This document shows positions 1-39,587 of a stretch of DNA of 57,058 nt, piece after piece. The stretch is from a virus. The notes beneath the pieces are model-generated. The model searched no databases and was not told where the DNA came from. It saw only the letters and a list, made by a program, of their open reading frames with translations. How positions within the stretch are numbered: the stretch's first letter is position 1; the number at the start of each line of letters is the position of its first letter. A program made the position numbers and the translations under genes. The DNA lies in the IMG/VR virus record IMGVR_UViG_3300033146_005660, positions 1-57,058 of that record; one strand, written 5' to 3'.

Positions 1-210
1 GGCAACCTAATGCGTTAGCCGGTCTTGCACCGGTCCCTTCGCCATGTTGAGAGACAAGATTCTCTCCGGAGGCTCCATCACCTCGGCAGAAAAAGATGGG
101 TTCCGCGAAGAACTAAAACTAAGGGTTTCCCCGGGCCATAAATCCGGGGGGAGTTGGCCTCTCCCGAAAAAGGCTGCGTTATCTGCACGCGACGTCCTCT
201 GATGTCAAAC
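1..210 (+). other. Gene-free, hairpin-rich leader
   Basis: I see no gene with a credible ribosome binding site here. The stretch is almost entirely made of small inverted repeats: CCGGT/ACCGG at 19-33, GAGAGA/TCTCTC at 49-66, CCCCGG/CCGGGG at 129-149, GGGAG/CTCCC at 149-165, and an outer GCTGCGTT/AACGCAGC pair enclosing GACGTC/GATGTC from about 173 to 216. It resembles the structured RNA further right and is probably the end of a structured transcript that begins before the window. No known RNA family was recognised. Confidence 0.4.
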
Positions 211-267
211 GCAGCGTAATACCACGGGGAAGCACCGTGGCGCGCTCACCGGCGCGGACAATTGGTA

Positions 268-315
268 GTGCAACGCGACTCAGGGTCGCCATGCTGGTTC
301 AACTCCAGGTTGCAC
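268..315 (+). ncRNA. D-armless tRNA-like element, copy 1
   Basis: A 7-bp acceptor-like stem (GTGCAAC with GTTGCAC) encloses an anticodon-like hairpin (GCGA, loop CTCAGGG with T33 and a CAG triplet in the anticodon position, TCGC) and a T arm (CTGG, loop TTCAACT, CCAG). The conserved D-loop sequence AATTGGTAG lies directly upstream, but no normal 5-prime acceptor strand can be paired with the 3-prime end, so a standard cloverleaf does not form. It is either a decayed tRNA-Leu or a deliberate tRNA mimic. The T loop and the seven paired bases are seen; function is inferred. Confidence 0.45.
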
Positions 316-372
316 GCAGCGTAATACCACGGGGAAGCACCGTGGCGCGCTCACCGGCGCGGACAATTGGTA

Positions 373-420
373 GTGCAACGCGACTCAGGGTCGCCATGCT
401 GGTTCAACTCCAGGTTGCAC
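373..420 (+). ncRNA. D-armless tRNA-like element, copy 2
   Basis: Identical to the copy 105 bp upstream: 7-bp acceptor-like stem, hairpin with the 7-nt loop CTCAGGG, T arm with loop TTCAACT. It is the last structured element before the first protein gene, about 100 bp upstream of that start. Confidence 0.45.
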
Positions 421-524
421 GATAGAGGCCGAGCACATGGCAAGACGTTTGTTGTGTGCTCGTTGTCGCCCGAAAGGGCACGGTGGCCGTGACGTGTACG
501 GTCGTTCATCATACAGGAGGTGTG

Positions 525-725
525 ATGAGATATGAAATGGCTTCGCGGATGGTCGAAGCCATTTTCCAGGGCCGTCTCTGGACGGCGAAAGGTCAACGAG
601 ACCTTCGCCGCATCCTAGAGGCGGCCCGCCGGGAACGGCGGGAATTCGTAAATGAGTTCCCGCCGGATGAGCTCGACGAGCTCATCGAAGGCGCGGCGAG
701 CGCTCTCAGCGTTGTAAACGCTTAG
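525..725 (+). CDS. Small charged protein of unknown function (66 aa)
   Basis: Not recognised. The start is chosen because AGGAGG at 515-520 sits just before ATG 525; the longer frame opens at 456 without such a site. The product is rich in Arg and Glu and should be mostly helical (RRILEAARRERREFVNEF). The start codon lies in the 3-prime arm of a TCATCA/TGATGA hairpin whose loop holds the Shine-Dalgarno sequence. The last codons and the stop lie inside a large perfect inverted repeat (695-735). First of a series of small hairpin-rich genes in the left module. Confidence 0.6.
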   Translation: MRYEMASRMVEAIFQGRLWTAKGQRDLRRILEAARRERREFVNEFPPDELDELIEGAASALSVVNA

Positions 726-735
726 AGCGCTCGCC
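695..735. other. Perfect inverted repeat over a stop codon
   Basis: GGCGAGCGCTCT pairs with AGAGCGCTCGCC, and inside it AGCGTT pairs with AACGCT around a 3-nt loop. The 12+6 bp stem spans the 3-prime end and stop codon of the 66-aa gene. No T tract follows, so it is not a standard terminator; it could stabilise or help process the 3-prime end of the message. Confidence 0.7.
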
Positions 736-784
736 GGGTTCATCCGGCCGTCACTCCCCGGTGACGTTAAACCATATGGGGCCC

Positions 785-920
785 CGATCCGGGTGCAGGG
801 TTTGGCAACCCTGGATAGGATGGGCGTACAGCGCCCTGAGCACACAGGTGGCATCGAGAGATGTCACCGGGGGTGTCTCAGATGAGGTGCGATAGCACCG
901 CGGGAGTCCCCCGCACGGTA
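785..920 (+). ncRNA. Structured RNA element, copy C (core only)
   Basis: Shares its core with the elements at 2110 and 3008: a 9-bp stem capped by the GNRA loop GAGA (847-868), GGTGC/GCACC (886-899) and GCGGG-AGTCC-CCCGC (900-914), then ACGG. Upstream, CAGGGTT/AACCCTG and GGGCG/CGCCC hairpins replace the first domain of the other copies. The stems differ in sequence between copies while staying paired, and the loop AGTCC is invariant. No terminator follows. Family not recognised. Confidence 0.55.
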
Positions 921-1020
921 GCCTATACCGGTCACGGAAACATAGGGAAGGCAATTAGATAGCCTTCGCAGGGGCCCGAAGTGGAGCATCGACGGATGTA
1001 AAGCTCCGGGTTCCTGTAGG

Positions 1021-1066
1021 TTCCACTGTGGTCTTAACGGAGGTTCGATTCCTCCGGTGGAAATCA
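1021..1066 (+). ncRNA. tRNA-like minihelix (acceptor plus T arm)
   Basis: TTCCACT (1021-1027) pairs with GGTGGAA (1056-1062) over 7 bp. Enclosed are an 11-nt linker GTGGTCTTAAC and a perfect 5-bp T arm with the canonical loop TTCGATT (GGAGG/CCTCC). A single base plus TCA follows, where a tRNA would carry its discriminator and CCA. No D arm or anticodon arm is present. A second version at 2374 keeps the same design with compensating changes, which argues that the fold is selected. Known biochemistry shows such minihelices can be substrates for RNase P; that role here is inference. Confidence 0.55.
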
Positions 1067-1068
1067 AA

Positions 1069-1129
1069 GGTGCCGCTGCTTCTGAGGCAGTGCTCCGGGT
1101 AGCACCCGGACGAGAGTCAGGCTCGCACC
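1069..1129 (+). ncRNA. Cloverleaf-like structure
   Basis: GGTGC (1069-1073) pairs with GCACC (1125-1129) and closes three hairpins: CTGC/GCAG with a 7-nt loop, TCCGG/CCGGA with loop GTAGCAC, and CGAG/CTCG with a 7-nt loop. The layout looks like a small tRNA, but the third loop lacks the TTCRA consensus and the acceptor has only 5 bp, so I do not call a tRNA. It follows the minihelix at 1021 directly. Confidence 0.3.
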
Positions 1130-1390
1130 ATGACCGTCGTACAGAGTGTTGCTGTACGTGCCTGACCAGTATCGAGGGCAACCGGGCCCCCCTGAGCGGC
1201 AAATCGCCGCTATCGAGCAAGTCCCCCGCGACACAGGGGACATCCGGTAGGGAGAGCACTCTCCCGACCTCGCTCTTAGGAGCGGGATGAGGCCATTGTG
1301 GCCGAAAACTCGACGACGGTGCCGTTGCTCCGCTGTCGTTGAGTCACTGGGCACCCCAAGCAGATAGGGGTGCTCGATGAGCAACAGAAA
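1130..1390 (+). other. Gene-free hairpin-rich stretch
   Basis: No gene is supported. It contains more small inverted repeats (for example GGGAGAG/CTCTCCC near 1249-1264 and CTCGACGAC with GTCGTTGAG near 1307-1341). It leads into the Shine-Dalgarno hairpin of the next gene. Confidence 0.35.
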
Positions 1391-1411
1391 GGAGGCCTCA
1401 TGAAGGCTTCC
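1391..1411 (+). promoter_or_regulatory. Start-codon hairpin sequestering the ribosome binding site
   Basis: GGAGGCCT (1391-1398) pairs with AGGCTTCC (1404-1411) over 8 bp with one G-U, leaving CATGA in the loop. The Shine-Dalgarno GGAGG is buried in the stem and the ATG is presented in the loop. The gene at 5668 has a closely similar hairpin, so this is probably a shared translational control device. Confidence 0.55.
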
Positions 1412-1594
1412 AAGAATTTCCGTCGCCTGGACGGAGTGGGCTTCGCCGATCTCGGCGAAGCCCACTCCGTCCACGGGCGCGTCTCGGCGAAGGAGCCGAG
1501 ACGCGCCCGTGGGCATCAGCGGTCTCTCCCCTCGTGGGAGAGGCCGCTGTCGTCACTCGGTGACGCCCTCCGCGAGGCGGGCGTCACCAAGTAG
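1400..1594 (+). CDS. Hypothetical protein encoded by four consecutive hairpins (64 aa)
   Basis: Not recognised. ATG 1400 is chosen for the GGAGG 5-9 bases upstream. The message is extraordinary: four perfect or near-perfect stems follow one another, 22 bp (1428-1449 with 1452-1473), 18 bp (1471-1488 with 1495-1512), 14 bp (1517-1530 with 1536-1549) and 10 bp (1559-1568 with 1579-1588, capped by an inner GCGA tetraloop). The peptide has no clear domain. Either it is a real small protein whose gene is selected for RNA structure, or a structured RNA with an incidental frame; the ribosome binding site favours translation. Confidence 0.5.
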   Translation: MKASKNFRRLDGVGFADLGEAHSVHGRVSAKEPRRARGHQRSLPSWERPLSSLGDALREAGVTK

Positions 1595-1724
1595 CGACGG
1601 ACGAGCAGTAGCGCCATGACGCTGCTCGTCCACAACATCATGGCCCTTCAGTCGTTGGGGATCAACGACCTCCACCGTGCGGAGTAGAGCACGATAGAGC
1701 GCGAACGTGAGTTCGTGAACTCTT
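1595..1724 (+). other. Short intergenic stretch with hairpins
   Basis: Contains GGACGAGCAG/CTGCTCGTCC, GTCGTTG/CAACGAC and CGAAC/GTTCG capped by the GNRA loop GTGA. A 15-codon frame (1640-1687) has no ribosome binding site and is not called. Confidence 0.3.
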
Positions 1725-1790
1725 AACGTCGCTCACAGGGCGCACCGTTGTACGTTACAGGCGTACGAGGACGGGGCTCTGTGGGACCTT
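1725..1790 (+). repeat. 66-bp leader repeat, copy 1
   Basis: Identical to 2464-2529. Each copy lies just upstream of the ribosome binding site of a different protein gene. It folds: CTCACAG pairs with CTGTGGG (outer 7 bp) and TTGTACG/CGTACGA encloses the 7-nt loop TTACAGG. Candidate 5-prime UTR control or processing element, or the site of a promoter. Confidence 0.7.
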
Positions 1791-1807
1791 TACTGAAGGG
1801 AGGGCCT

Positions 1808-2095
1808 ATGGCCCGCCGCTGCGCGACGAAGCGCAGCTCCTTTCGTCGTCAGCTGGCGGCGAAACGCCTCAACGGTCTCATGGAAGACCGCGAGGCGGTC
1901 TACGCCGCCAGTAGCTGGCTGTCCCGCCAGGCGGTAATGTCGCCTGGCGGGCGCACCCGGTCGGCGGCGGAATCCGCAGCGTTCAGAACGGAGAACGCTG
2001 CGGAGTTCCGCCGCCTGAGGGTGCAGGCTGCAAAGCTGGAGAGGGAAATCTCAAACGCGCTGTTTGAGATCTCCCTCCTGGCCGGCAGCCGGTAG
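1808..2095 (+). CDS. Basic helical protein of unknown function (95 aa)
   Basis: Not recognised. ATG 1808 follows GAAGGGAGGG; the start codon sits in the loop of a GGGCC-TAT-GGCCC hairpin. The product is Arg-rich and helical, with a likely coiled-coil C-terminal half (FRRLRVQAAKLEREISNAL). The coding sequence contains an 11-bp perfect stem (1923-1951), a 21-bp stem with one bulge (1963-1983 with 1994-2015) and a 15-bp stem with one mismatch (2041-2077). The 66-bp leader repeat lies just upstream. Confidence 0.55.
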   Translation: MARRCATKRSSFRRQLAAKRLNGLMEDREAVYAASSWLSRQAVMSPGGRTRSAAESAAFRTENAAEFRRLRVQAAKLEREISNALFEISLLAGSR

Positions 2096-2109
2096 CCGGC
2101 AGACGGCGG

Positions 2110-2339
2110 GACCCCTACGCCCGAGAGGGTGTAACTGCTGTGGATCGTAGATTCACAGCGGCGTAGGGGCGTATGGCACTAACGTAAGTGCTCGGCAAAC
2201 TACTGTCGTGAGCTGACAGGGAGCATCGAGAGGTGTTCCTGGGGCAGTGTAGAGTCAGGTGTTGTCACACCGCGGGAGTCCCCCGCACGGGCCATCCACC
2301 CGTCGACGAGAACTGGAGAGGGTCAACCAGATTGACCGG
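2110..2339 (+). ncRNA. Structured RNA element, copy A
   Basis: Domain order: a 10-bp stem CCCCTACGCC/GGCGTAGGGG (2112-2169) around an invariant CGAGAGGGTGTAACT segment and a 10-bp inner hairpin; a GCACT/AGTGC hairpin; CTGTC-GTGAGCT-GACAG; a GNRA hairpin (2221-2238, loop GAGA); GGTGT/ACACC; GCGGG-AGTCC-CCCGC; GGTCAA-CCAGA-TTGACC. Copy B at 3008 keeps every stem with different base pairs while loops are conserved, the signature of a selected RNA fold. A Rho-independent terminator follows directly. It lacks the RNase P, tmRNA, SRP and group I core motifs I know. Confidence 0.65.
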
Positions 2340-2376
2340 CGTCCCCGTACGAACTGTACGTGCGGGGACGTTTTTT
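2340..2376 (+). terminator. Rho-independent terminator after element A
   Basis: CGTCCCCG (2340-2347) pairs with CGGGGACG (2363-2370), followed by six T. The loop contains GAACTGTACG, also present in the terminator of element B. The T tract overlaps the 5-prime strand of the next minihelix. Confidence 0.85.
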
Positions 2377-2419
2377 CGCTGTGGTCTTGACGGAGGTTCG
2401 ATTCCTTCGGCGGAAATCA
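2374..2419 (+). ncRNA. tRNA-like minihelix, second version
   Basis: TTTCGCT (2374-2380) pairs with GGCGGAA (2409-2415); the linker is GTGGTCTTGAC and the T arm is GGAGG-TTCGATT-CCTTC. Compared with 1021, the A-T pair at acceptor position 5 becomes G-C and other changes keep pairing through G-U. A plus TCA again follows. The 5-prime strand lies in the T tract of the preceding terminator, so termination and minihelix formation would compete. Confidence 0.55.
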
Positions 2420-2463
2420 TCCCGGCCGCAGTAGTGCGGCAACGGAGCTATCCGTGAATAGCA

Positions 2464-2529
2464 AACGTCGCTCACAGGGCGCACCGTTGTACGTTACAGG
2501 CGTACGAGGACGGGGCTCTGTGGGACCTT
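2464..2529 (+). repeat. 66-bp leader repeat, copy 2
   Basis: Exact copy of 1725-1790, placed 39 bp before the ATG of the 140-aa gene. Flanks of the two copies differ, so the conserved block itself is the unit. Confidence 0.7.
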
Positions 2530-2567
2530 CGACGGCTCGCTCTCAAAGGAGCGGGCAGGAGACAAGC

Positions 2568-2990
2568 ATGACCATCAAGGTCATCGCCGAATCTCACGTC
2601 GACCACGGGATCGCCAAACCGGCGCTTCAGTGGCTCCTCGATCGGTTCGCCGATCGTGACGGTTTCTTCATTGAGACCGTGGAGCTACCGGAAGAGCTGG
2701 GGATGGTTCCTTGTGGGTTGCACGGACCGCTGATGGGTGATGAGCCCATCGCCGAGTCCGAAGTGACCTACAAGGCTCGTGGGGAGCGAGGGTACCCCTC
2801 TCGCCTAGCGGATCGTCCCGCGCGCCAAGTGCGCACGGTGACCGTCATCGCTGGGCCCGATGGGGACGAGCCCTGCGTGTTGTACACGGCCTTTGGTGGG
2901 CCGTTGACACCGCAGGAGCCCGGTGATCCGAGCTGTAAGGACTTGAAAGAGTCCCAGCAGTTCTGGTCAACCCACGCGCTTTCCGCGTAG
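2568..2990 (+). CDS. Hypothetical protein (140 aa)
   Basis: Not assigned to a family. ATG 2568 is preceded by AGGAG with good spacing; a longer frame from 2454 would run through the leader repeat and is rejected. The C-terminal half (VIAGPDGDEPCVLYTAFGGP, then QEPGD and QFWSTHALS) looks like a compact conserved domain rather than a random frame. The gene lies between structured RNA copies A and B. It has fewer hairpins than its neighbours but includes CGATCGG-TTCG-CCGATCG, a UUCG-capped stem (2639-2656). Confidence 0.65.
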   Translation: MTIKVIAESHVDHGIAKPALQWLLDRFADRDGFFIETVELPEELGMVPCGLHGPLMGDEPIAESEVTYKARGERGYPSRLADRPARQVRTVTVIAGPDGDEPCVLYTAFGGPLTPQEPGDPSCKDLKESQQFWSTHALSA

Positions 2991-3007
2991 GTTCTCCGGA
3001 CCGACGG

Positions 3008-3254
3008 TTCCCTACGCCCGAGAGGGTGTAACTGCTTCGAGTCATAGACTCTAAGCGGCGTAGGGGCGTATAGCACTAACGTAAAGTGCTCGGCAGTCTG
3101 CTGTCGTGAGCTGACAGAGCTTACCGTGAGGTAAGTTCGGGGCAGTGCAGAGAAGAGGTGCAAAGGGTAGCCAATCCCGAAAGCACCGCAGGAGTCCCCT
3201 GCGCGGAGCAACTCTCCGGTCTTTGGAAAGAGTGAGGTTAACCAGATTGACCGG
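3008..3254 (+). ncRNA. Structured RNA element, copy B
   Basis: Same order of stems as copy A: CCCTACGCC/GGCGTAGGG (3010-3065) around the invariant CGAGAGGGTGTAACT; inner hairpin GCTTCGAGTC/GACTCTAAGC; GCACT/AGTGC; CTGTC-GTGAGCT-GACAG; a GNRA hairpin (loop GTGA, 3118-3137); GGTGC/GCACC enlarged by an insert; GCAGG-AGTCC-CCTGC; GGTTAA-CCAGA-TTGACC. Compensatory differences from copy A occur in at least four stems. Confidence 0.65.
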
Positions 3255-3293
3255 CGCCCCCATGCGAACTGTACGCACGGGGGCGTTTTTTTT
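3255..3293 (+). terminator. Rho-independent terminator after element B
   Basis: CGCCCCC (3255-3261) pairs with GGGGGCG (3279-3285), with an inner TGCG/CGCA stem, followed by eight T. Same architecture and loop sequence as the terminator at 2340. Confidence 0.88.
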
Positions 3294-3379
3294 AATGTCC
3301 AGGAGTACCCGGGCCTGGAGCTCTGCTTGCAGAGAATAGTACGGGATTATGATAACCACCCACGGGAAGGAGAAACACC

Positions 3380-3433
3380 ATGGGTGACGTTGTCAAAGAG
3401 GCCGTTCGGATCATTATCCGGACGGGCTCGTAG
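3380..3433 (+). CDS. Candidate 17-residue peptide
   Basis: ATG 3380 follows GGAAGGAG at a good distance and encodes MGDVVKEAVRIIIRTGS before TAG. The message forms a CCGTTCGGAT/ATCCGGACGG hairpin. It could be a leader peptide for the tandem hairpins downstream rather than a functional protein. Confidence 0.35.
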   Translation: MGDVVKEAVRIIIRTGS

Positions 3434-3510
3434 AGACTTCCCGCGCCGAGCGGTCAACAATCGGCGCGGGTAGAGACTTCCCGCGCCGAGCGGTCAACAA
3501 TCGGCGCGGG
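3431..3510 (+). repeat. Two tandem 40-bp hairpin units
   Basis: 3431-3470 and 3471-3510 are identical. Each holds CCCGCGCCGA paired with TCGGCGCGGG (10 bp) around an 11-nt loop and starts with TAGAGACTT. It overlaps the stop codon of the 17-residue frame. Confidence 0.9.
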
Positions 3511-3515
3511 AACTC

Positions 3516-3583
3516 GTCTGCAGTCCAGGAGACCCTGAGCGTGCTGTTGCGCGAGCAGGTGAGGTTCGACACCTTATGCGGAC
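3516..3583 (+). ncRNA. tRNA-like element of 68 nt
   Basis: GTCTGCA (3516-3522) pairs with TGCGGAC (3577-3583), 7 bp with one G-U, and the T arm is TGAGG-TTCGACA-CCTTA with a canonical T loop. Between them lie a CAGG/CCTG hairpin and a CGTGC-TGTT-GCGCG hairpin. Neither makes a normal D or anticodon loop, so a codon assignment is not possible. Only the top half of a tRNA is preserved, as in the minihelices at 1021 and 2374. Confidence 0.45.
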
Positions 3584-3675
3584 ATTGTGTGCTCCACGGT
3601 GGAGTACATATTAACCAGGGTGCCCTTGGGTGCCCGTATTTGAGCCCGGATTAGATTCGGGCGAAGGAGGACATC

Positions 3676-5553
3676 ATGTCCAATCTTCAAACTTCCGCGC
3701 GCACCAACACCAACACCACCGCCAGCGCCAGCGCCGCGACGGCGGCGTTCCTGTTAGAGATGGCCGAGGAGTGGGGCTCGGCCAACCCGCGAGCGGTCGC
3801 GAGGTGGTCTAGGCCCCTCGCGGCCCCCGAGGTCGATCGGCCCAAGAGGCCGATGACAGAAAGGAGGTACGTCGCGGCCGTCCGCGACGTCCTCCGAAAT
3901 CTCCGCCGCGATGCGGAGTTCTCGGGGGACGACGCAAAGGCCGGTTATTACGACGGCCTGGCGGGCGAGGACGCCAGGCTGATCATCGGCCTGGGCCTCA
4001 ACCACATCCGGCCCCTTGACTGGGGTCGGATGGATCGGCGAGTCGACGGGGCGCTCGCCGAGTGGCATCGGCTGATGCCCCGATCTGGGGTTGTTGGGTC
4101 GACCAACAACCTCGACCCCGAGTTCTTATTTGCCCTCTACAGGGCGAAATGGACGCGGGGACTCCCGACGCCCGTCGGGGAGAAGCATTGGATTGACCTC
4201 GGGTCGGTCCAGTGGTTCCTCCAGAGGGCGTTCCGCCAACGCGACTGGCGGACCTTCCTCTGGATCTGGCGGAATCCAGAGGAGGCGGCGTTCGTCGGAG
4301 ACCGTTCCTACGGGAACCTCCGGCGAGTCGCCAAGGGCGGCCTCCGCATGAGGTGGGCAATCCGCTTCATGCGGAACCGCGCTCGGCACGAGCACGGTGG
4401 ATGCACCTCCTGGCTACAGAGCCAGGAGGTGCACTGGGAGGCCACCCTGGAGGAAATCCAGAGGGCCAGGGAGGCCCTCTGGGTCGAACTTGCTCGCCTT
4501 CTGCGTGGCGACGACTTCTGGGAGGTCGTCGCGCCAAAGAAGGCGACGTGGATCCGCTACCACCGGCGGATCCCAACCGGCGAACTCGGAGACTTCCTCG
4601 TCCGGGAGGTCCCCAAGTCGGAGATCAAGAACCTCGTGTGGAAGAAGTTCCACGAGGTGTTCCGGCATCTCCAAGACTTGGGGCTCCACCTGGAGGACGC
4701 CGCTAAGGGAGCCATTGCGCTCATCGGCGTCTTCGGTCCACGTTGGAAGACGTGGCTCCAGAGAATGGAGGCTCGGCACGTTGGCGCTCACAACGCCACG
4801 TACTGGCTCCCTGCGGCCACGCAGCCCGATCTGGGCGCGTGGTTGCTGCGTCACCTGGAGACCAACCAGGAGACGCTCCGGCTTGTGGTGAGCCGGTGGG
4901 AGGACCTCTCGGACGAGGACAGGAAACTCCCCACTGCGAAGATCGTCGCCGTGATCCGTGCGTCTGCGTACGGAAGCGAGGCGAGCCTCAACCGCGCTCT
5001 TGCCGAAGAGTGCGGCCGGTGGGGAGTCTCCAAGGAGAGGTTCTCGAAGTACGTTCGAAAGTACTCCGGGAGCCTCTCAGGCCTCAAGGAGGAGACCGTC
5101 CCTGGCTTTCCGCCGGTCAAGGACGGTGAGCTCACCGCATACCGTCTGGCGCGCGGTGATGTTCGGGGGCTTTTCCTCGGCGAGCACACGAACTGCTGTC
5201 AGTCCGTGGGAAACGTTGCCAAGTCATGCGCTTGGCACGGTGCCACGGGCCGCGACGGCGGGTTCGTGGTCGTCGAGCGCCAAGGCCAGATTGTGGCTCA
5301 GAGCTACGTCTGGCGCGACGGAGCTCACCTGGTGTTCGACTCGCTCGAATGCCTTGGTGAGCGGAAGAAGTTCCGCCCGATCATGCTGGCGGCGGCCAGG
5401 GAGATGGTCGGGCGACTCGGCGTCGGAGGCGTGTACGCCGGCGACGGATACGGCACGTCGGATGAACGGATTCGGAATCCGTTCATCCACAAGGCGATGT
5501 ACAGTGCGGACTCGGAGATGGTCCGCCTTGTCGCTGGAAAGGCGGTGAAATAA
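3676..5553 (+). CDS. Large hairpin-rich gene; protein with C-terminal CCQ/QSYVWR domain (625 aa)
   Basis: Function unknown. ATG 3676 follows AAGGAGGACATC and lies in a small GGACA-TCA-TGTCC hairpin. After a Ser/Thr/Asn/Ala-rich N-terminus (NTNTTASASA), the C-terminal 170 residues have a conserved-looking core: LGEHTNCCQSVG, a Cys-x-x-His, then QIVAQSYVWR and LVFDSLE. The pattern vaguely recalls PcfJ-like or GNAT-like domains of phages and plasmids; that is a guess. The coding sequence carries many stems, including 14 bp at 4402-4433, 9 bp at 4089-4111, 10 bp near 4259-4286 and 13 bp at 5461-5487. Confidence 0.75.
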   Translation: MSNLQTSARTNTNTTASASAATAAFLLEMAEEWGSANPRAVARWSRPLAAPEVDRPKRPMTERRYVAAVRDVLRNLRRDAEFSGDDAKAGYYDGLAGEDARLIIGLGLNHIRPLDWGRMDRRVDGALAEWHRLMPRSGVVGSTNNLDPEFLFALYRAKWTRGLPTPVGEKHWIDLGSVQWFLQRAFRQRDWRTFLWIWRNPEEAAFVGDRSYGNLRRVAKGGLRMRWAIRFMRNRARHEHGGCTSWLQSQEVHWEATLEEIQRAREALWVELARLLRGDDFWEVVAPKKATWIRYHRRIPTGELGDFLVREVPKSEIKNLVWKKFHEVFRHLQDLGLHLEDAAKGAIALIGVFGPRWKTWLQRMEARHVGAHNATYWLPAATQPDLGAWLLRHLETNQETLRLVVSRWEDLSDEDRKLPTAKIVAVIRASAYGSEASLNRALAEECGRWGVSKERFSKYVRKYSGSLSGLKEETVPGFPPVKDGELTAYRLARGDVRGLFLGEHTNCCQSVGNVAKSCAWHGATGRDGGFVVVERQGQIVAQSYVWRDGAHLVFDSLECLGERKKFRPIMLAAAREMVGRLGVGGVYAGDGYGTSDERIRNPFIHKAMYSADSEMVRLVAGKAVK

Positions 5554-5657
5554 TTAACCTGGAGCATCGATACCAGCACTGCTCCCGTTCATATACAACC
5601 GCGTTCCGAGCACAGAGCTGCACGGTCCGGAACGCAAACTCGCATGTGCAGCAGAAA
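5554..5657 (+). other. Short structured leader
   Basis: GCGTTCCG (5601-5608) pairs with CGGAACGC (5628-5635), and GCTGCAC with GTGCAGC just beside it, so two folds compete. No gene. Confidence 0.35.
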
Positions 5658-5676
5658 GGAGGCCCACATGGCTTCC
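5658..5676 (+). promoter_or_regulatory. Start-codon hairpin of the 233-aa gene
   Basis: GGAGGCC (5658-5664) pairs with GGCTTCC (5670-5676) around the loop CACAT. The Shine-Dalgarno is in the stem and the start codon at the loop edge. Nearly the same device as at 1391-1411, also preceded by CAGAAA. Confidence 0.55.
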
Positions 5677-6369
5677 AAAACAGGAGGGGGGCTCAAGCCC
5701 CTCCCCGGCGTTGGCGTTAAGGCGCCGCGCCGGAACAAGCCTCGCGAGCGCGCGATGGCGAGCGAAGTGCGCTCGCGAGGCAATGCCTTGCCCGGGGAAA
5801 CCCGATCCCGCATGACGGGATTCCCCGGGCTTGTTGGGGCTCGAGTCGACTTCGAGCCCCAACTCATCGTCGCCGTCGGGGCGGCGGGTTCTGGACGACT
5901 GGCGTGGACGAACGCCGTCGTCGGGACCTGGCCGTCCCGACGGGAAGACTCTCGGGGCGCGTTGATCGTGGCGCGCCCCACAGATTTCTTCTCCGCGGAG
6001 GGCATCAAATACTCCGGGGAGAAGATGCGCGAGGCAGGCCAGTGGGCCTTGCGCGCAGTGATCGAGGGCGCGCGAGTCGGCCGCGACGTCCTCGCCGACG
6101 GTGGGACGGGAGCGTTCTCCGCGCTCTCGCCCATCGTTGAGATCGGCCTCGCGTATGGCCTGTCCATACGCGTGGTCATCTTCGTCTCTGACGTCCGCAC
6201 GTGCTCGTCCCGCGTGCGGACGTCAGATCGGGTCCTCGACCGCCAAGTGCGGCGTGTCGAGCGCCTTGTGGAGACCTGGCCAGGCTTCTGGCCAACTCCC
6301 GAGGTCCTCGACGTCCGCGAAGGCGGCGAGGACCTGAGACGCCTCCAGCAGTGGGGCGTCGACATCTAA
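5668..6369 (+). CDS. P-loop kinase-like protein, N4BP2L1-type, modified Walker A (233 aa)
   Basis: After a basic, low-complexity N-terminal 60 residues, the sequence LIVAVGAAGSGRLAW resembles a Walker A loop with Arg-Leu in place of Lys-Ser/Thr. It is followed by a DFF motif, an AxxWALRAVIEGA helix and a D-x-G stretch, in the order seen in N4BP2L1-like AAA_33 kinases. Loss of the Walker lysine suggests weak or no ATP hydrolysis. A complete relative is encoded at 10523. The gene has stems of 13 bp (5739-5781), 12 bp (5833-5863) and 15 bp (6187-6227). It is the last gene of the hairpin-rich module. Confidence 0.6.
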   Translation: MASKTGGGLKPLPGVGVKAPRRNKPRERAMASEVRSRGNALPGETRSRMTGFPGLVGARVDFEPQLIVAVGAAGSGRLAWTNAVVGTWPSRREDSRGALIVARPTDFFSAEGIKYSGEKMREAGQWALRAVIEGARVGRDVLADGGTGAFSALSPIVEIGLAYGLSIRVVIFVSDVRTCSSRVRTSDRVLDRQVRRVERLVETWPGFWPTPEVLDVREGGEDLRRLQQWGVDI

Positions 6370-6421
6370 GCTGTTCACTCCGCCAGCCCACCGGAGTCTA
6401 AATATAGTGGGCAACCCACCG

Positions 6422-6454
6422 GGCGAGCACCATCCAAGGTGTTCGCCTTTTTTT
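6422..6454 (+). terminator. Strong Rho-independent terminator closing the left module
   Basis: GGCGAGCACC pairs with GGTGTTCGCC around ATCCAA, followed by seven T. The density of coding hairpins falls abruptly downstream. Confidence 0.9.
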
Positions 6455-6490
6455 ACTATCGGAGAAAGATACCGATCAAGGAGAACGACC

Positions 6491-6922
6491 ATGAACAACG
6501 CCAAGTCCTTCAAGCTCAAAGAGTTCAAGGTGGGCTGGCGAAACAACCCTTTGGTCATAAACGCCTGGGGTGGCGGGCACACGCATGAGACGGACCCCAC
6601 ACGCAAGGGGTGGCGCATCCAACCGGTCAAGGAGAACCGAAAGGGAGCCATTCTTTTCGGTCGGCCCGGGAAGCTCGGATGCTTTTCCGTGGTCTCCCTG
6701 TCGGATGGCGAGCTCGATGTCGCCATGTACGACGGGAAGCCCGAGGACGTTGCGGATTACCTGCGAACCGGACAGCACTGTGAAGGTTCGTGGGACCCCG
6801 ACTACCACGAGGCAAAGAACATCTCCGGATGGGCTATTGAGTTCGTCCAGGAGATCGAGAGCCGTGAGAAAAACGGATGGTTCGAGGACGTAGACATCAA
6901 TAATCATTGCGCACTTGTTTAG
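6491..6922 (+). CDS. Hypothetical protein (143 aa)
   Basis: Not recognised. ATG 6491 follows AAGGAG; an upstream in-frame ATG (6407) precedes the terminator and is rejected. The product is soluble, with a likely beta-rich middle (GAILFGRPGKLGCFSVVSL) and an acidic C-terminal half. It is the first gene after the module terminator and shows no hairpin enrichment. Confidence 0.7.
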   Translation: MNNAKSFKLKEFKVGWRNNPLVINAWGGGHTHETDPTRKGWRIQPVKENRKGAILFGRPGKLGCFSVVSLSDGELDVAMYDGKPEDVADYLRTGQHCEGSWDPDYHEAKNISGWAIEFVQEIESREKNGWFEDVDINNHCALV

Positions 6923-6946
6923 CCATCATCAATTCGCATTAAATAT

Positions 6947-6955
6947 GGCATAAGA
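6947..6955 (+). promoter_or_regulatory. GGCATAAGA motif, candidate phage promoter
   Basis: GGCATAAGA followed by TATCTATAG. The same motif occurs before plus-strand units at 17463, 21426, 29504 and 39247. It lies about 160 bp before the GTG of the 174-aa gene. Confidence 0.5.
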
Positions 6956-6991
6956 TATCTATAGAAAACAAATACTTACATACGATTTAAG

Positions 6992-7023
6992 AATCAATAC
7001 AAATCAATACAAATCAATCAATA
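6992..7023 (+). repeat. Short tandem repeat, 10-bp period
   Basis: AATCAATACA occurs twice in a row, then AATCAATCAATAG. It lies in an AT-rich leader between the promoter-like motif and the next gene. The 191-bp gap 6923-7113 holds nothing else I can identify. Confidence 0.6.
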
Positions 7024-7113
7024 GATTATCAGCTCCATGGCAACCGGGCCCATGGGTCAACGCTGAACTTTGCCCGGAATGCACCCACTTAGATTGGGTG
7101 ACAAGGAGACGTT

Positions 7114-7638
7114 GTGGAAAAGAACGTCAAGACAGTTATGGAGATCGGAATCGGCATCCTCACGGACGACTCTGCAAACATGGAGTCCGTTAAGAACCTA
7201 AGGGACTCTTCAAGCAGGCTAACCACGGACTGGCCATGGGACTGTTCGGTCTACCTCTCCGAAATGATGAGATCCATCGAGCTCCTATTGGCACTCGTGT
7301 TCGATGAACACGGAGAAGACCGAGACAATGATGTCACTGTCATTGTCTCGAAATCGTTCGATGCCATGGCCATACGCGCCGCCGCCAGTTTCCTCGTTGC
7401 CAACGCGCGCCGCCAAGGGTTCTCGGGGAAGAATGTCGATCACGCTGAAAAGGTGATCGCCATGTCGAACACAATCATCAGCGGAGCCAAGTTGATTAGC
7501 ATCGAAGCGGAAAAGGAGGGGGTTTCCACGAGATGGTCCGAACTCGGAAGCTGGAAGAAAAAGTTCCTCGACTTCTCCAACTCCCCCCACGAGGAGCTCC
7601 GAAAATTCAGCAAGCTCCTGAAAGGAGAACGGAAATGA
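7114..7638 (+). CDS. Hypothetical helical protein (174 aa)
   Basis: Not recognised. GTG 7114 is the start, with AAGGAG 9-12 bases upstream. Predicted mostly helical, soluble, no motif seen. The stop overlaps the ATG of the next gene (ATGA), indicating translational coupling with the MYG1-like protein. Confidence 0.75.
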   Translation: MEKNVKTVMEIGIGILTDDSANMESVKNLRDSSSRLTTDWPWDCSVYLSEMMRSIELLLALVFDEHGEDRDNDVTVIVSKSFDAMAIRAAASFLVANARRQGFSGKNVDHAEKVIAMSNTIISGAKLISIEAEKEGVSTRWSELGSWKKKFLDFSNSPHEELRKFSKLLKGERK

Positions 7639-8474
7639 AACGCATTATCACACATGGTCGCAAGGCTCACCGTGATGACTTCCTGGCCGTGGCGCTCGCC
7701 CTGGCCATCTACGGGGTCATGCCGGTTTTCCGCCGGGACCCCACGGAAGAGGAGCTGGACGACCCCGAGGTTCTCGTGCTCGATGTCGGGGGACAACACA
7801 ACCCTGAACGCAACAACTTCGACCACCACCAATTCCACAAGTCGCACGAGCCCGAGTGCGCGCTCTCCCTGTTCGTGCGCGCACAAGACCTCGAGGACGA
7901 CTTCAAGCTGAGGCCCTGGTGGGAGTTCACCGTGGTCAAGGATGCCCAGGGTCCCAGAGCGGCAGCGAAGACTTTGGGTCTGGATTCCCTGCACGTGGGT
8001 CTCCAGAGTCCTGTGGAGAGCATCCTGCTTCATATGTTCTCCGGGAAGACATGGCTCAGCATCGAAATCACGGAGCTTATGAAAATGTTTGGCAAAGAGC
8101 TCCTCGAGTACACCAAACGGTACGCTCAAGATTACCGCGAGGTCCGTAGCCTCGTGGATATCCAGGAGATCGGAGGGGAGAAAACATTGGTAGCTCATAG
8201 GAGCACGGGGGGAACAATGAACGGTATCCTCGGGAGATACCATGAGCTCGAGCATCCCGACGCAGTGCTCAGCATATCCCCGAGCCCCGATAAAGGTGCC
8301 TCGTGGGCCATCTACCGGTTCGACAGAGCAGATGTCGATCTCTCTCATCTTGAGGGAAATAGCGATATCAAGTTTGCCCACCGAAGTGGGCATCTGGCTA
8401 TTCTCAGGAACGGCCTAAAACTTCAACGAGCCATCGATCTCGCCGAGCTCGCCATCATCTGGGATCGACAATGA
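7635..8474 (+). CDS. MYG1/UPF0160-like metal-dependent hydrolase (279 aa)
   Basis: The N-terminus reads ITHGRKAHRDDFLAVAL, matching the H-x-x-x-x-H-x-D-D opening of the MYG1 family, then VLVLDVGGQHNP and FDHHQ, the family's VVDVGG and DHHQ motifs. MYG1 proteins belong to the DHH-like phosphoesterases and act as 3-prime to 5-prime RNA exonucleases in eukaryotes. Length (279) is a little short of the usual 300-350. It overlaps both neighbours by 4 bp. Family assignment is from motifs; an RNA-degrading role in the phage is inference. Confidence 0.75.
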   Translation: MKRIITHGRKAHRDDFLAVALALAIYGVMPVFRRDPTEEELDDPEVLVLDVGGQHNPERNNFDHHQFHKSHEPECALSLFVRAQDLEDDFKLRPWWEFTVVKDAQGPRAAAKTLGLDSLHVGLQSPVESILLHMFSGKTWLSIEITELMKMFGKELLEYTKRYAQDYREVRSLVDIQEIGGEKTLVAHRSTGGTMNGILGRYHELEHPDAVLSISPSPDKGASWAIYRFDRADVDLSHLEGNSDIKFAHRSGHLAILRNGLKLQRAIDLAELAIIWDRQ

Positions 8475-9691
8475 ACCCGGAGCGACGGCGACGAGAGTAC
8501 GGAAATGCTCACGTGGCATGGTTACACACGGATACCATGTCACTACCGCTTCTCACCGCGTTCATCGGTGAGAAGAACAAGGAAATTTCCCCCCTGCAAC
8601 TCAAGGAGGTTCTCAGGGGGCAACCTCCAAGCGTTCCGGGAGACAAGTTCCTCTGGCAGATATCCATGCTCGTCGAGCACGAGAACCAGACAGAGGAATT
8701 TCTGGAGAGCGAAAACTCCACTTTCTGGAGCACCATGTTCCAGTCTGTCTTGACAGCCCTGGGTAGCACCTTGGCCGCAAGTGACACCCCGAAGTCCATG
8801 CTTAACCACGTGGCGGCCATGCATGTTCACAACACGCACATGAACTACATGGTTCGCAAGAGCGGCGGGCAGACGTTCATGCTCTCCCAGGGTCTCACTG
8901 ACCGACTCATGCTCACGGACGTCGGGCACGCCGACGTAGCGGACGTCCACCTTCCGTTCGACGCCTTTATCCTCCAGATTCCCCGGGGGATGTTCCAAAT
9001 CCGCGACGAGCGAACAGAAGAGCACGAGGTTGATTCGGTTCTGGTCTGCAAAGGCCATAGGCTCGACGGAGAGCGAAAGATCTCACTCCTCATTGGCGGC
9101 GCAGAAAACGAGAACAGCGTAAACATCGGGGATGAGGCCGTGTTCTACTCAAACGTTCTCATGGACAGCGGGACAATCCACGAGAACATTGAGAGGGGTA
9201 TCGACGAGTTCCAGGACGTCCCAGGTAACTACACAGCAGAGGAGGTTCTCAAAAACCTGAGGTCCGGTGAGGTCTCCGGACCGGACTCGTACAGGAAGAT
9301 CGTGAACTTCGTACTCGCCTCCATCCTGTACATCACGGATTTCCCCGAGGACCGCAAGAGGTACCTCGGAGACGAAATTGAAGCACTTGAAGAACGCCTG
9401 AAAAGAAAAGGCGGGAAGGGAAGAAAGAACGCGAAGGCAAAGCTTCGCAGGCTCCAGAGAAAATCCCACGCAGTGCAAATCGTGGGTGCGGACATCGAGG
9501 TGGACTCAAAAATGACGGAGGCTGCCCGTGAGTCCGTTCGTGAAATTAAGGTGTCCTCGTACGTTCGGGGACACCGGAAAATGCAACCCTACGGTCCAGA
9601 GCGTTCATTCAGGAAACCGATCTGGGTCCAACCATACTGGCGCAACCTCGGCAATGAGCCGGTGAAGCGTCCATATCACGTCCAAAAGTAG
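8471..9691 (+). CDS. AcrVA2-like family protein (406 aa)
   Basis: The central HLPFDAFILQIP and the C-terminal YVRGHRKMQPYG plus KPIWVQPYWRN match the layout of the widespread AcrVA2-like family, whose founding member blocks Cas12a biosynthesis; most relatives have unknown roles. A charged linker (EALEERLKRKGGKGRKNAK) precedes the C-terminal domain. It overlaps the MYG1-like gene by 4 bp. The family link is from remembered motif layout; an anti-CRISPR function is only a hypothesis. Confidence 0.5.
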   Translation: MNPERRRREYGNAHVAWLHTDTMSLPLLTAFIGEKNKEISPLQLKEVLRGQPPSVPGDKFLWQISMLVEHENQTEEFLESENSTFWSTMFQSVLTALGSTLAASDTPKSMLNHVAAMHVHNTHMNYMVRKSGGQTFMLSQGLTDRLMLTDVGHADVADVHLPFDAFILQIPRGMFQIRDERTEEHEVDSVLVCKGHRLDGERKISLLIGGAENENSVNIGDEAVFYSNVLMDSGTIHENIERGIDEFQDVPGNYTAEEVLKNLRSGEVSGPDSYRKIVNFVLASILYITDFPEDRKRYLGDEIEALEERLKRKGGKGRKNAKAKLRRLQRKSHAVQIVGADIEVDSKMTEAARESVREIKVSSYVRGHRKMQPYGPERSFRKPIWVQPYWRNLGNEPVKRPYHVQK

Positions 9692-9701
9692 GAGAAAAAC
9701 C

Positions 9702-10522
<821 letters not shown>

Positions 10523-10523
<1 letters not shown>

Positions 10524-10963
10524 TGGAGGTCATTATCCTCATGGGCATACGGGGTTCCGGGAAAACATCGTATGCCCAATCAAAGTTTCCCAAACACCTA
10601 AGGTGTTCCGCAGACGAGTGGTTCACTGACCGGCACGGAAAGTACAAGTTCCTCGAAGACCAGTTGCCCATCGCGAATGGGTACTGCTTCAGGAAATACT
10701 CACTGTCCGTGGGCCGAATGGATCTCGTTGTTGACAATCCAAACACCCGCCTATGGGAGGTTTCCCCGTACATCGCGTTGGCCGAGAGCTACTCGACCTT
10801 CGTGAAAGTCGTGTTCCTCGATGTCCCCCTGGAGCTTGCGCTGAAAAAAGCGGCGCATCTCCCAGAGCAGATCATCCGGGACCAACACGAACAAATACAA
10901 CAGTCCGTGGACGCATGGCCCGCGGAATTTCCGACACTCGAAATGGTGTCAACAGGAGAATGA
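10523..10963 (+). CDS. P-loop kinase, N4BP2L1/AAA_33 type (146 aa)
   Basis: A perfect Walker A (GIRGSGKTS, residues 8-16) is followed by CSADEWF, the D-x-W/F-F element of polynucleotide-kinase-like AAA_33 proteins, and VVDNPNTRLWEV, matching the family's DNTN-x-R segment. Probably an ATP-dependent kinase acting on nucleic acid ends or a small substrate. Single domain, usual length. The related protein at 5668 has lost the Walker lysine. Confidence 0.75.
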
Positions 10964-10964
10964 A

Positions 10965-11348
10965 ATGCCAAAAACAAACACAAACACAGACAAAAAATCT
11001 CTCGTCGCCTCGCTGCTCGGGGCATCATTGCTCGCCCTCGGTGCATCCGTCTACGGCATCTACCGCCTTAAGAAGGACAACGAGAAGCAGGTGAAGAAGT
11101 TCGTCAAGGACTACGACCGGCTCAGCGATGAACTCTCGCGGGTGGACATGGGGCGCAACGAGCTCCGCGACGAAGTCCGGGACCTCCGACATTTGCTCGA
11201 CAACGAGCGCCACCTGACCATAGGGGAATTGACAGACAAGATGTCGAACCTCGTTCTCCAGATGGAAGTGGAGAACGAGGTCTCCGAGAAGCGTCAAAAG
11301 GTCAAGGGCAAGATCTTGGAGTTCGTCTCCAAGATGAGCACCAAGTAG
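10965..11348 (+). CDS. Membrane-anchored coiled-coil protein (127 aa)
   Basis: N-terminal polar tail with NTNTDKK, one transmembrane segment (about residues 13-32), then a long charged coiled coil. It could be an inner-membrane anchor or spanin-like protein; nothing decides this. ATG 10965 follows AGGAG. It is the last gene of this plus-strand operon, before the convergent terminator. Confidence 0.7.
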   Translation: MPKTNTNTDKKSLVASLLGASLLALGASVYGIYRLKKDNEKQVKKFVKDYDRLSDELSRVDMGRNELRDEVRDLRHLLDNERHLTIGELTDKMSNLVLQMEVENEVSEKRQKVKGKILEFVSKMSTK

Positions 11349-22298: not shown

Positions 22299-23258
22299 CT
22301 AAAGCTTCCTTGTCCCCAGACCGTTGAGTTCCCCGAGCATGTCCTGGTAGAACTTTCTCTTCGATGGGGGTGCCTGCGGTTCCGTCCCAGGTTTTCCTAT
22401 TTTACTCGTCTTGGGCTTGGGCGGCGAGGTGATCCAGCTCGATCTGGCGCTCTTGACCTTGGATCCCACGGCCTTCTTGGACGCCGTCTTCTCCTGCTTC
22501 TTCTCAGCGTAGTCCTTGACGGCTTTGGCTATCATGGGTGCCGTGAGCGCTGGAATGGCGCTGACCACGTAGGTCATGAACGCCGGCAACAGCGTGGCCA
22601 TGGATTTGATCGCCGCACGGTTTCCCTCGATCGCCCTGATTGCCCTTGTTCCATGGATTGACGCCCTGGCCTCCTCGAGAACGTCCGGAATATGAGGAGC
22701 CACCGAAACGAGAGGGGCATACTTGCTCACCGTGTCGTTATCCGACATGGCCATCCCGATTCCCGTTCCCATAAAGGCCGGTCTCGCCACGTCCCTTGCT
22801 TTGACGAGCGTGGACAGCGTGGAGATTGGCGATGGAACGTTGTGTCCAACCTCGTGGGCAATTGTCGCCGGGTTCCCGGAGCTCAGGAATATCCTTGGCT
22901 TGACGCGTTCGGCGAACTCCGATGTTTCCTTTCCGAAGATTTTCGGGTGGCCTTTCAGCGTCTCAATGGTTTGCCTTGGTATCGTGAGCGACTCTCCGCC
23001 AACTACCGTACTGACATGCGGGACATTCAGATACTCCTCGTATTGAAGCTTTCTCGCGAGGGCCTCAAAATCAACGGAGCCAAGCCATCTCCCGATGTCT
23101 TTTTTATCGTAAGATCCATGAATCGAATCGATGATATTTGAGAGGGGATCTATGATTGCCCTGGAGGCCCCTGTCTCGCTGGTGGCAACCCCGGACAGCG
23201 CTCCGTACATTCTCGGAAGCTGAGACCTGTTGATGTCAGAATTCTCATTGTCGCCCAT
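22299..23258 (-). CDS. Putative zinc metalloprotease, HExxH type (319 aa)
   Basis: TIAHEVGHN (HEVGH at about residues 134-138) is a zinc-protease signature, and EEARASIHGTRAI about 60 residues later could supply the third ligand, as in other HEVGH metallopeptidases. Two hydrophobic helices follow, then a basic Lys/Pro/Ser-rich tail. Candidate prohead or virion protease, or an ejected effector. It overlaps the RNA polymerase stop by 1 bp (TGATGG). Confidence 0.65.
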   Translation of the reverse strand: MGDNENSDINRSQLPRMYGALSGVATSETGASRAIIDPLSNIIDSIHGSYDKKDIGRWLGSVDFEALARKLQYEEYLNVPHVSTVVGGESLTIPRQTIETLKGHPKIFGKETSEFAERVKPRIFLSSGNPATIAHEVGHNVPSPISTLSTLVKARDVARPAFMGTGIGMAMSDNDTVSKYAPLVSVAPHIPDVLEEARASIHGTRAIRAIEGNRAAIKSMATLLPAFMTYVVSAIPALTAPMIAKAVKDYAEKKQEKTASKKAVGSKVKSARSSWITSPPKPKTSKIGKPGTEPQAPPSKRKFYQDMLGELNGLGTRKL

Positions 23259-26200
23259 CAGTATCTGCCCTTCTCTCCGGTTCCGAATTCAGCGCCATAT
23301 GCAAATGCGGGGACAGGGGAGTATCCGTGAATGTCCGACGTCCAGCCTTCTCCGGCGCCCTGCTGGATTGCCCTAGCAATGTGACCATATCCTAGCTGTG
23401 CCATCCAGTCTTTACTGAGAAGCGGAACCTGCTTGATTCCCTCCATGAACGGCTTGTGGACGATGGGCTCCGGGCCGATATGAACCTCGGTGTGACCAAG
23501 ATTCTTGAGGATATCAGCTACCCTCTTGGTGATCTCGGTTCCCTTTTTGACCGGGCCATAGGACCTGTGAAGTGTTTTCCCAAGGGCTTCACCGAGACCA
23601 ACTCGCCCGAGCGCCTTCTTGTTAAAAGACTCTGCAAGTGAATAGGGGATCACGTCTCCGAGGGTATAGGGGGAGCTCCCACCGTCGACAACTCTCGTTG
23701 TGTTCGAGACGGACTGAACGACTGTCTCGACGTTCTTCTTCAAGATGTTGAACCCCGTGTCCTTGTACGCCGAAACGATCTCGTCAACGAGGTACTTCTG
23801 TGCCGGAAGCATTCCCTTGAGGTCCACGAGCTCCCGGGGCTGAATGATTCCATCGGAGATCGGGTCTCCTTTTTTGATGGTTGAGCCGATCTTTACCTTG
23901 AGGGAGTTTCCCGGGGAAACAAAGTGCTTGGTTGATCCAATGAACACGTTTTTTCCGCCGGTCATGGCGTTTTCTATCGAGGTAACTTTTCCGTCATGGA
24001 GTGAAAGCGTCGCCTTGCCGGCGATAATCTTCGGCATCTTGATCAGTTTGTCGATCTTCTCGAAGCCCGTGACGTTCTTCGAGCCACTGACGCCACCGGA
24101 ATGCATGGTGTTCAGCGTCATCTGGGTCAGAGGCTCAGTCATCGACTGACCGGCGATGGCCCCGATGTTCGTACCGAGCTCAGGGAACTTGCCCGTGCTG
24201 TCCAGGCCATAACAGGATGAGCACACGCCATCGGACAGACCGCAGGTGAGCGGCGATGAACACTTGACCTTCTTGACCTTGTGCTTCCTGAACGTGGTCA
24301 CCATGTTAGGCGTGACGATGTCTCCCTGGCGGGCAAGGACCTTTCCTCTGGACTTGACGTCCTGAACGAGGACGCGGTCGTTTACGTTCGAGTCGTTGAT
24401 GTCGAAATCAAGTCCATTGTCCGTGTTGCACTTTTCCTGGGTGACAACAGATCGAACCACGGTGGCCATGAGGTCTTTGTTGAACTCGCCAGGCTTCGAG
24501 GTCTGTAGCTGCTTGTCGACAACGCCCTTGCGCGCACCGTACAGGCTGTTCCAGTAATCAGGGAGAGACATTCCCGTCGAGAAAGACCCCTCGATGGCTA
24601 TGGGAAGCGTGTTCCCGTTGACATCGTCGACGAGCAGCGGTGCGCTGACAATTTGCTTGAGCTGATTCATATCCCCGCGGGCACCGGATTGGACCATCTT
24701 GTACAGGTTGTTCCCCTGCTCCCCGAGGTCATGAGCAATCATCACTTTGAGCTTTTTGTCGACTTCCCGGTAAAGCTTCACCTTCTTGTCGTCGCTCATA
24801 TTCTTGGATGCACGACGCGCATCGTCCAGGAGCTTCTGTCTTCCCTTGATGACCGGCTGAACGTCGTCGATGCTCACCGTGAACCCCCGGGCAAACGCAT
24901 GCTCATTTCCGAGCTCCGTGAGCTTGTCAACGGTGTTCGCGTATTCTGCGGGGTTGTCGTTGGCGATCTCCGTGAGAAGCTTCTTGATCCCCGATTTATC
25001 AAGGAGACCGCTTCGACCGCGGTATTTCTCCGGGAGAACCGCGTCGATCAACATCCTTCCCGCCGTGGTGTTTTTCCCGGCGACCCTGACCATATCCTGG
25101 ATGTCGATGTCACCCTTCTCGAGTGATGTGCTCAGGGCCTCCGCGTTCTTGAAACTCTTCTTTGTCCTTTTCCCGCTCTTGCTCAGGAAGTAAAGACCTA
25201 TGGAGGATTCCTGTGACGGTGCCATCATGATCGCACCGGTACCTGGGTTGAACAGGTTGCGGGACGGCAACATCTTCTTGGCTTCTTCGACTGCCTTTGG
25301 CATGATGGGAACGTGTACGTGCATAGTGTCCCCGTCAAAGTCCGCATTGAAGCCCTTAACAATGAGCGGTGGAATCTTTATAGCCTTCCCGGCTATGAGC
25401 TTGGGGTTGAATGCCATTACATTGAACTTGTGAAGTGATGGAGCTCTATTCAGGAAGATGGGACGCTTGGCCATAACGGCTTCAAGGGCCTTGCGTGCCA
25501 CGAAGCTCTGGTTCTCGATTTCCTTGTCTGCGTCCGTCGCCTTGTAGCCCTGACCCACGAGCTCGCGCATCACGAATGGTTGGAATATGGTCCACGCCAT
25601 CTTCTCGGGAATCCCCGCCTCGTCGATTCCAAGCTTGGGCTCGGGAATGATCGTCCCGCGACCCACGAGATCCTGTTCCCGGCGAAGCACATGTTTCTGG
25701 AAGAAACCCGTCTTCGATCCTGCCCCCGCGTTTCCCTTGATCTCCTCAATGATCCCCCTGGGGCGTCTCTTCTTCGGATAGTACGTGATTGGATTCGACG
25801 AGATACCAGCAACGGCGGCCGCGCCCCTGTAGAGGTCTCTGCGTAGATCACTCTTGGCGTCCTCGGGCATGTACTCGAGCTTGTTGAAGGATCTAAGCTT
25901 ATCGCTGACGAGCCCAAGATCTCTGTACAGGAAGTTCACGGGAGACGTGTGGAGGTTCCCGTCGGGAAGCGCGTAAATAGGCCGGAAGGCCGGGGGAAGC
26001 ACGGGGACTCGATTTAGGATGTATGCATTCTGCGGTTTCAGGTTGAGCTTCTTGAGCGCCTCAAGGTAGCGGATGCCCTTGTTGGCGTTGTTGACCGTGG
26101 TCATCGACTTGGACTTGCGTGCCGATGTCTTGAAGGTCCTCATGGACTTTTCAACATCGAGCTCGGTCAGAAGCCTCAGGAAAGCATTCCCTCCCGTGAG

Positions 26201-29998: not shown

Positions 29999-30027
29999 TA
30001 CGAGAACCGATACAAATACTGTAGAGG

Positions 30028-39577: not shown

Positions 39578-39587
39578 GGAGGAAATC

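Follow-up and report, generated by a model that had tools for sequence, protein, structure and literature searches.

An island of pervasively folded coding sequences in a probable tailed phage and its counterparts in Microcystis phages

The DNA analysed here (the window) is a single IMG/VR record, IMGVR_UViG_3300033146_005660, of 57,058 nt. It probably comes from a larger genome, that of a big tailed double-stranded DNA (dsDNA) phage, and its terminase is of the gpA type. Its left end, positions 525–6369 on the plus strand, is an island of six open reading frames (ORFs) whose coding sequences are dominated by serial hairpins, and the evidence below favors selection on the folding of their messages. 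GC content is 60–65% in the island vs. about 55% in the remaining window, a difference for which the shuffled controls account.

For each ORF the local folding energy was compared with that of synonymous-codon shuffles that keep the protein and its codon usage, and all six are far more strongly folded than their shuffles (z from −6 to −16), so the hairpin density does exceed what GC content predicts, as a prior sequence-only reading of this DNA had proposed. The 66-aa ORF (525–725; z −8.1) has its ribosome-binding site in the loop of a predicted hairpin, CAUCAUAC-AGGAG-GUGUGAUG, and the start codon of the 95-aa ORF (1808–2095; −6.0) lies within the loop of GGGCC-UAU-GGCCC. The 64-aa ORF (1400–1594; −8.2) and the 233-aa ORF (5668–6369; −9.4; no family found) have the leader CAGAAAGGAGGCC in common. 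The 140-aa ORF (2568–2990; −6.6) weakly matches phrog_23674 (function unknown), and the signal is strongest in the 625-aa PcfJ-like ORF (3676–5553; −15.7, range −14 to −16). Around each of the six start codons the RNA is predicted to form a strong hairpin (60-nt energies of −15 to −28 kcal), and 70% of the island bases are paired in the predicted fold. The sequence-only reading had overlooked the 66-aa and 140-aa ORFs and the structured spacers.

The individual stems it had listed were largely, though not entirely, recovered. The 64-aa ORF does consist of four consecutive hairpins, and its 195 nt fold at −150 kcal/mol; the 22 bp (1428–1473) and 18 bp (1471–1512) stems are perfect, and the other two had been given as 14 and 10 bp. 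For the 95-aa gene only the 11-bp stem (1923–1951) was found; the reported 21- and 15-bp stems were not found as perfect ones, and the gene has instead a perfect 12-bp stem (1973–2004) and one of 16 nt that is 94% matched. The three stems named for the 233-aa gene, of 15 bp (6187–6227), 13 bp (5739–5781), and 12 bp (5833–5863), are all perfect, and the 625-aa gene has perfect 14-bp stems at 4402–4433 and 5460–5488. Perfect stems of at least 8 bp number 16 in the latter (shuffle mean 2.2, maximum 6) and nine in the 233-aa ORF (mean 1.1, maximum 4). Shuffles with equal hairpin density, which would have spoken for chance, were not seen; the shuffles lack the stems. The 140-aa ORF has an excess of folding energy without an excess of perfect stems.

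A dinucleotide-shuffle scan of the whole window gives a mean z on the plus strand of about −5.3 over positions 1–6000 and about 0 right of about 12 kb, with small peaks near 28–30 and 38–40 kb. The island ends in a terminator-like hairpin and a subsequent T7 run (6422–6460, read from the sequence), and the sequence-only reading had the stems end at 6455. A step does occur there, but a weak residual excess persists to about 11 kb in later plus-strand genes (6491–11348; z −1.5 to −6.5 over 6491–10963), which we treat as a fading edge outside the core. ORF 29811–30131 also carries an excess by codon shuffles, as do two small, hairpin-rich plus-strand ORFs at 39314–39857 within the minus-strand late region (z −2.7 and −6.6), 39588–39857 being among the ORFs with excess. 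The minus-strand late genes have z values of mostly +1 to −4, an excess of about −1 kcal/100 nt. We also note, on the same strand downstream of the island, an ORF part of which resembles MYG1/UPF0160 exonucleases (7533–8474) and a polynucleotide-kinase-like AAA protein (10523–10963).

The spacers between the island ORFs are folded as strongly as the ORFs in the dinucleotide-shuffle scan, and they contain repeated plus-strand elements. Non-coding structured element B (2096–2430) has a terminator-like hairpin with T6 (2340–2376) and then a T-arm-like element (2374–2419); its copy, element C (2993–3300), has a terminator-like hairpin and T-run (3255–3291); and a diverged copy A (740–1070) has a GNRA-capped hairpin, GGUGGCAUC-GAGA-GAUGUCACC, and a T-arm-like end (1021–1066). 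A leader/spacer repeat occurs directly upstream of the 95-aa ORF (1714–1790) and, at 94% identity, directly upstream of the 140-aa ORF (2453–2529), and a tandem pair of identical 40-nt units (3430–3509) forms one hairpin of about 13 bp per unit. The T-arm-like elements at 1021–1066 and 2374–2419 can be drawn as T-arm plus acceptor-like minihelices (GGAGGTTCGATTCCTCC), one of them directly after a terminator-like hairpin. At the left island edge lie direct repeats, two exact tandem copies of a 105-nt unit (209–418, plus strand), which by eye can be folded as D-armless tRNA-like elements with a GTGCAAC/GTTGCAC acceptor-like stem, anticodon-like and T-like arms, and an anticodon-like loop, CUCAGGG. 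ARAGORN calls no tRNA, these copies included. An Rfam scan of window positions 1–8000 and of three further loci (L030, L034, and L004) found no family at its gathering score, and DNA patterns built from the spacer elements gave either no matches or chance matches without islands.

Watson–Crick stems can form on either strand, and strand asymmetry was therefore used to ask whether the folding is a property of the RNA or of the DNA. With composition controlled, the sense strand exceeds the antisense strand in folding excess by −3.35 ± 0.85 kcal/150 nt in the window and by −1.36 ± 0.42 kcal/150 nt in the Microcystis phage MaMV-DH01 (below). Spacer elements B and C differ by 14 double-compensated and 0 broken pairs among 81 consensus pairs; the structure derived from one copy and tested on the other gives 10–11 double-compensated pairs vs. 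0–2 in slid controls. In one spacer hairpin present in three copies the arms differ, and the pairing and the GNRA loop are kept. The better folding of the sense strand and the strong covariation of copies B and C favor selection at the RNA level, and because of the sense bias cruciform DNA is less favored as the cause of the island stems.

The 625-aa protein is the only island protein for which relatives were found. It is 35% identical, across its C-terminal part, to homologues in the Microcystis phages MaMV-DH01 and MaMV-DC (Fukuivirus); an alignment-based scan found homologues in six IMG/VR loci of the MaMV clade, and the MaMV homologue is weakly related to a protein of Aphanizomenon phage CL131. 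Single-protein IMG/VR scans with the 625-aa protein, the 233-aa protein, and the terminase returned no relatives, nor did a scan of bacterial and archaeal genomes. The CL131 homologue weakly matches the PcfJ-like family PF14284, at 17.7 bits (E 0.003), under the gathering cut-off of 25; the window protein itself has no PF14284 match in Pfam. The full-length AlphaFold model of the 625-aa protein has a pLDDT of 38, and the top Foldseek matches from a low-confidence model (pLDDT 52) are mostly GNATs (E 0.003 at best); the C-terminal domain is perhaps GNAT-like.

The Fukuivirus homologues have stems of their own and lie in an island of their own. In MaMV-DH01 most genes between 52.6 and 65.3 kb are over-folded, the PcfJ-like gene among them (z −9.6), and the flanks, DNA ligase and further neighbors, are normal (z about 0). 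The IMG/VR relatives L029–L034 show a structured island too, with equally sharp edges in L030 and L032. Like the window, the Fukuivirus island (the gp064–gp067 region of Ma-LMM01, MaMV-DC, and MaMV-DH01) has structured coding sequence over several genes, terminator-like hairpins between genes, and, in MaMV-DH01 and MaMV-DC, a PcfJ-like protein, the sole protein common to the islands of the two lineages; it differs in its weaker folding (−7.5 kcal/150 nt), its different genes, and its own leader motif. None of the papers found reports that it is structured. Gene order is shuffled within the clade, and many genes are divided by a terminator-like hairpin followed by the leader TTCT(A/G)GTGA...GGAG, which occurs nine times in the MaMV-DH01 island and nowhere else on either strand of its 182 kb (shuffled mean 0.25). 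The leader stem changes as a unit, CTAG/CTAG to or from CTGG/CCAG (A-U/G-C covariation), and the hairpin, with its conserved GTGA loop, overlies part of the ribosome-binding site. From their sequences, these terminator-leader cassettes (L030 4500–12900; MaMV-DH01 58.7–65.4 kb) are likely a post-transcriptional regulon.

These phages also allow foldedness to be followed through sequence divergence. The PcfJ-like genes of MaMV-DH01 and L030 differ at 204 of 684 codons and yet have equal folding energies, −34.4 kcal/100 nt; had these substitutions fallen at random sites, the energy would be −31.0 kcal/100 nt (z −5.5). The test gives z −5.2 and −6.0 for the genes of 1674 and 248 aa, and no clear signal for the short one of 171 aa. 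A strict tie of folding to the PcfJ-like gene was considered and rejected: in CL131 the homologue, gp131, has only a mild folding excess (z −3.6), and folding is strongest about 5 kb away, in the adjacent genes gp141–gp143 (L028 5076–6904; z −5 to −7). Early expression is also an unlikely driver, since the early genes of Ma-LMM01 are gp054–gp063 (PMC5780444) and gp062 and gp063, although they adjoin the island, are not structured.

By terminase and RNA polymerase, the nearest kin of the window are Vibrio phage D181, Salmonella phage Arash (180 kb), and the IMG/VR genomes G001 and G002. The polymerase is encoded at 23258–29494 on the minus strand as a single 2078-aa chain with beta-type and beta′-type domains (the Rpb2 and Rpb1 Pfam domains, in order); it has full-length relatives in G001 and G002 and is split in D181 and Arash. 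No comparable island is present in the Arash genome, G001, or G002, and this absence from the nearest kin argues that the island is an accessory module.

Pervasive folding of coding RNA is itself known from RNA viruses, where it is called genome-scale ordered RNA structure (GORS; PMC3695492), and from RNA phages. Measured as folding excess over dinucleotide shuffles, the island (−18.2 kcal/150 nt) surpasses MS2 and Qbeta (both −11.1), and dsDNA phage sequences lie far lower (T4 −1.6, SPO1 −1.9, lambda −1.8, Arash −1.7, and the window late genes −1.4). The coding RNA of MS2 and Qbeta (Leviviricetes) resembles the island in its hairpin-dense ORFs, a paired fraction of about 0.67–0.70, and a G-U sense bias; the island differs in its longer perfect stems (at least 8 bp; 7.0 per kb vs. 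0.75 expected and 0.6–1.4 in RNA phages), its greater excess energy, its DNA genome, and its lack of a replicase. The island shares with GORS a coding-RNA energy far under that of codon- and composition-matched shuffles, beyond codon and dinucleotide controls, over kilobases, apparently maintained by selection and with no single fixed fold needed. GORS, however, is defined for RNA genomes and is genome-wide, and here the signal occupies about 6 kb of 57 kb in a bounded dsDNA-phage island, so that transcripts are its sole possible carriers. A search of the open literature, which was not exhaustive, found no report of such a bounded coding island in dsDNA phages.

Our preferred explanation, to which we give about an even chance, is that selection keeps the mRNAs of this accessory module globally folded, probably as a shield from single-strand-specific RNA attack. 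By computation, synonymous codons are chosen so that every ORF folds into serial hairpins; the nascent mRNA would fold at once behind the polymerase, leaving few single-stranded stretches, and would live longer, protected against endonucleases that cut single strands, against antisense or RNA-guided complexes, and against R-loops. Ribosomes would unwind the stems as they elongate. A hairpin leader for each gene and several terminator-like ends would make the genes insulated cassettes, and the selected trait would be foldedness as such and not a fixed fold. That messages are selected for double-stranded structure had been suggested by the sequence-only reading, and this part is borne out by the codon-shuffle z values, the sense bias in two phage lineages, the spacer covariation, and the folding energy that the Microcystis phages retain although up to 30% of their codons differ; its interpretation as a whole, which also names evasion of nucleases or RNA-guided defence and RNA packaging as conceivable purposes, is partly supported. 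Several observations weigh against our explanation. Shielding is a role that we infer from the folding; MazF-type ACA sites are not depleted in the island (49 seen vs. 55 expected); perfect stems of 18–22 bp could be RNase III substrates; and the G-U asymmetry (fraction 0.098 sense vs. 0.058 antisense) is by itself marginal once composition is controlled, since shuffles reproduce part of it. In addition, paired four-fold sites are no less variable than unpaired ones, no single fold is conserved, and close Fukuivirus strains have few deduplicated covarying pairs, not clearly more than in the flanks (9/1610 vs. 2/546). Together with the codon-change test, these last results fit selection for foldedness that is current, with individual stems turning over.

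Alternatively, the folds might slow or gate ribosomes, with the shared leaders as targets of a common RNA-binding factor, so that the genes are made late, slowly, or on signal. The covarying leader hairpin of the Fukuivirus genes (nine in the island, none elsewhere) and the hairpins at all six window start regions would suit this idea, but gating of initiation needs structure at start sites only and the hairpins span whole ORFs and spacers; no regulator was identified, and we consider it unlikely. Somewhat doubtful as well, indeed rather improbable, is a cause at the DNA level. Inverted repeats would then be selected, or driven by mutation, as cruciforms, as hairpins of single-stranded DNA, or through template switching that corrects quasi-palindromes, and mRNA folding would merely follow from them. 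The very long perfect Watson–Crick stems (22, 18, 15, and 14 bp), more perfect than those of RNA phages of similar folding energy, and the strongly folded antisense strand speak for it; the significantly better folding of the sense strand in both lineages, the spacer hairpins with GNRA loops and covariation, and a signal that keeps to transcription units having leaders and terminators of their own speak against it. In 8-bp stems of the Fukuivirus islands, moreover, G-U changes outnumber A-C changes by 100 to 44 (26 to 21 in the flanks), counts that are not corrected for shared ancestry.

The island RNA could also behave like the genome of an RNA phage, as cargo packaged in virions or as template for an RNA-dependent activity. 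Folding beyond that of MS2 and Qbeta, the tRNA-like and terminator-like ends, and the phage's own fused RNA polymerase invite the thought; yet no RNA replicase or packaging signal was identified (Pfam and PHROGs searches of the six island ORFs gave no RNA-dependent RNA polymerase, coat, or maturation family), the terminator-like hairpins break the island up into separate transcripts, the same polymerase occurs without the island in the nearest relatives, and MaMV-DH01 has the trait with no such polymerase annotated, which makes this very unlikely. An artefact of base composition, or a chimeric assembly of a foreign hairpin-rich stretch with a phage contig, is scarcely credible: the higher GC content and the island-free kin would allow it, but codon- and dinucleotide-preserving shuffles exclude composition, the signal fades over 6.5–11 kb and, farther along this contig, returns at 39.6 kb in plus-strand ORFs, and the phenomenon is also present in Microcystis phages that have been isolated and sequenced completely.

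Returning to globally folded, shielded messages as the preferred explanation, the recurrence of the trait beside one shared protein gene in unrelated Microcystis phages points to what may be an undescribed kind of shielded viral message. A bolder conjecture, which we rate as a long shot, is that dsDNA phages carry a transferable module of RNA-virus-like folded messages, which either travel in virions and are translated at once or are themselves copied into RNA, and that the PcfJ-like/GNAT-like protein is an RNA-acting factor specific to this module. Synonymous positions across several complete genes of a DNA phage seem to be shaped for RNA folding, and more strongly than in RNA phages. With the trait present in an unrelated, cultivable phage group, Ma-LMM01 or MaMV-DH01 infecting Microcystis would offer a lytic laboratory system for testing the long-standing question of why some viruses have pervasively folded coding RNA, and folding excess combined with leader-terminator cassettes may serve as a signature for finding hidden RNA-level functions of phage genes.

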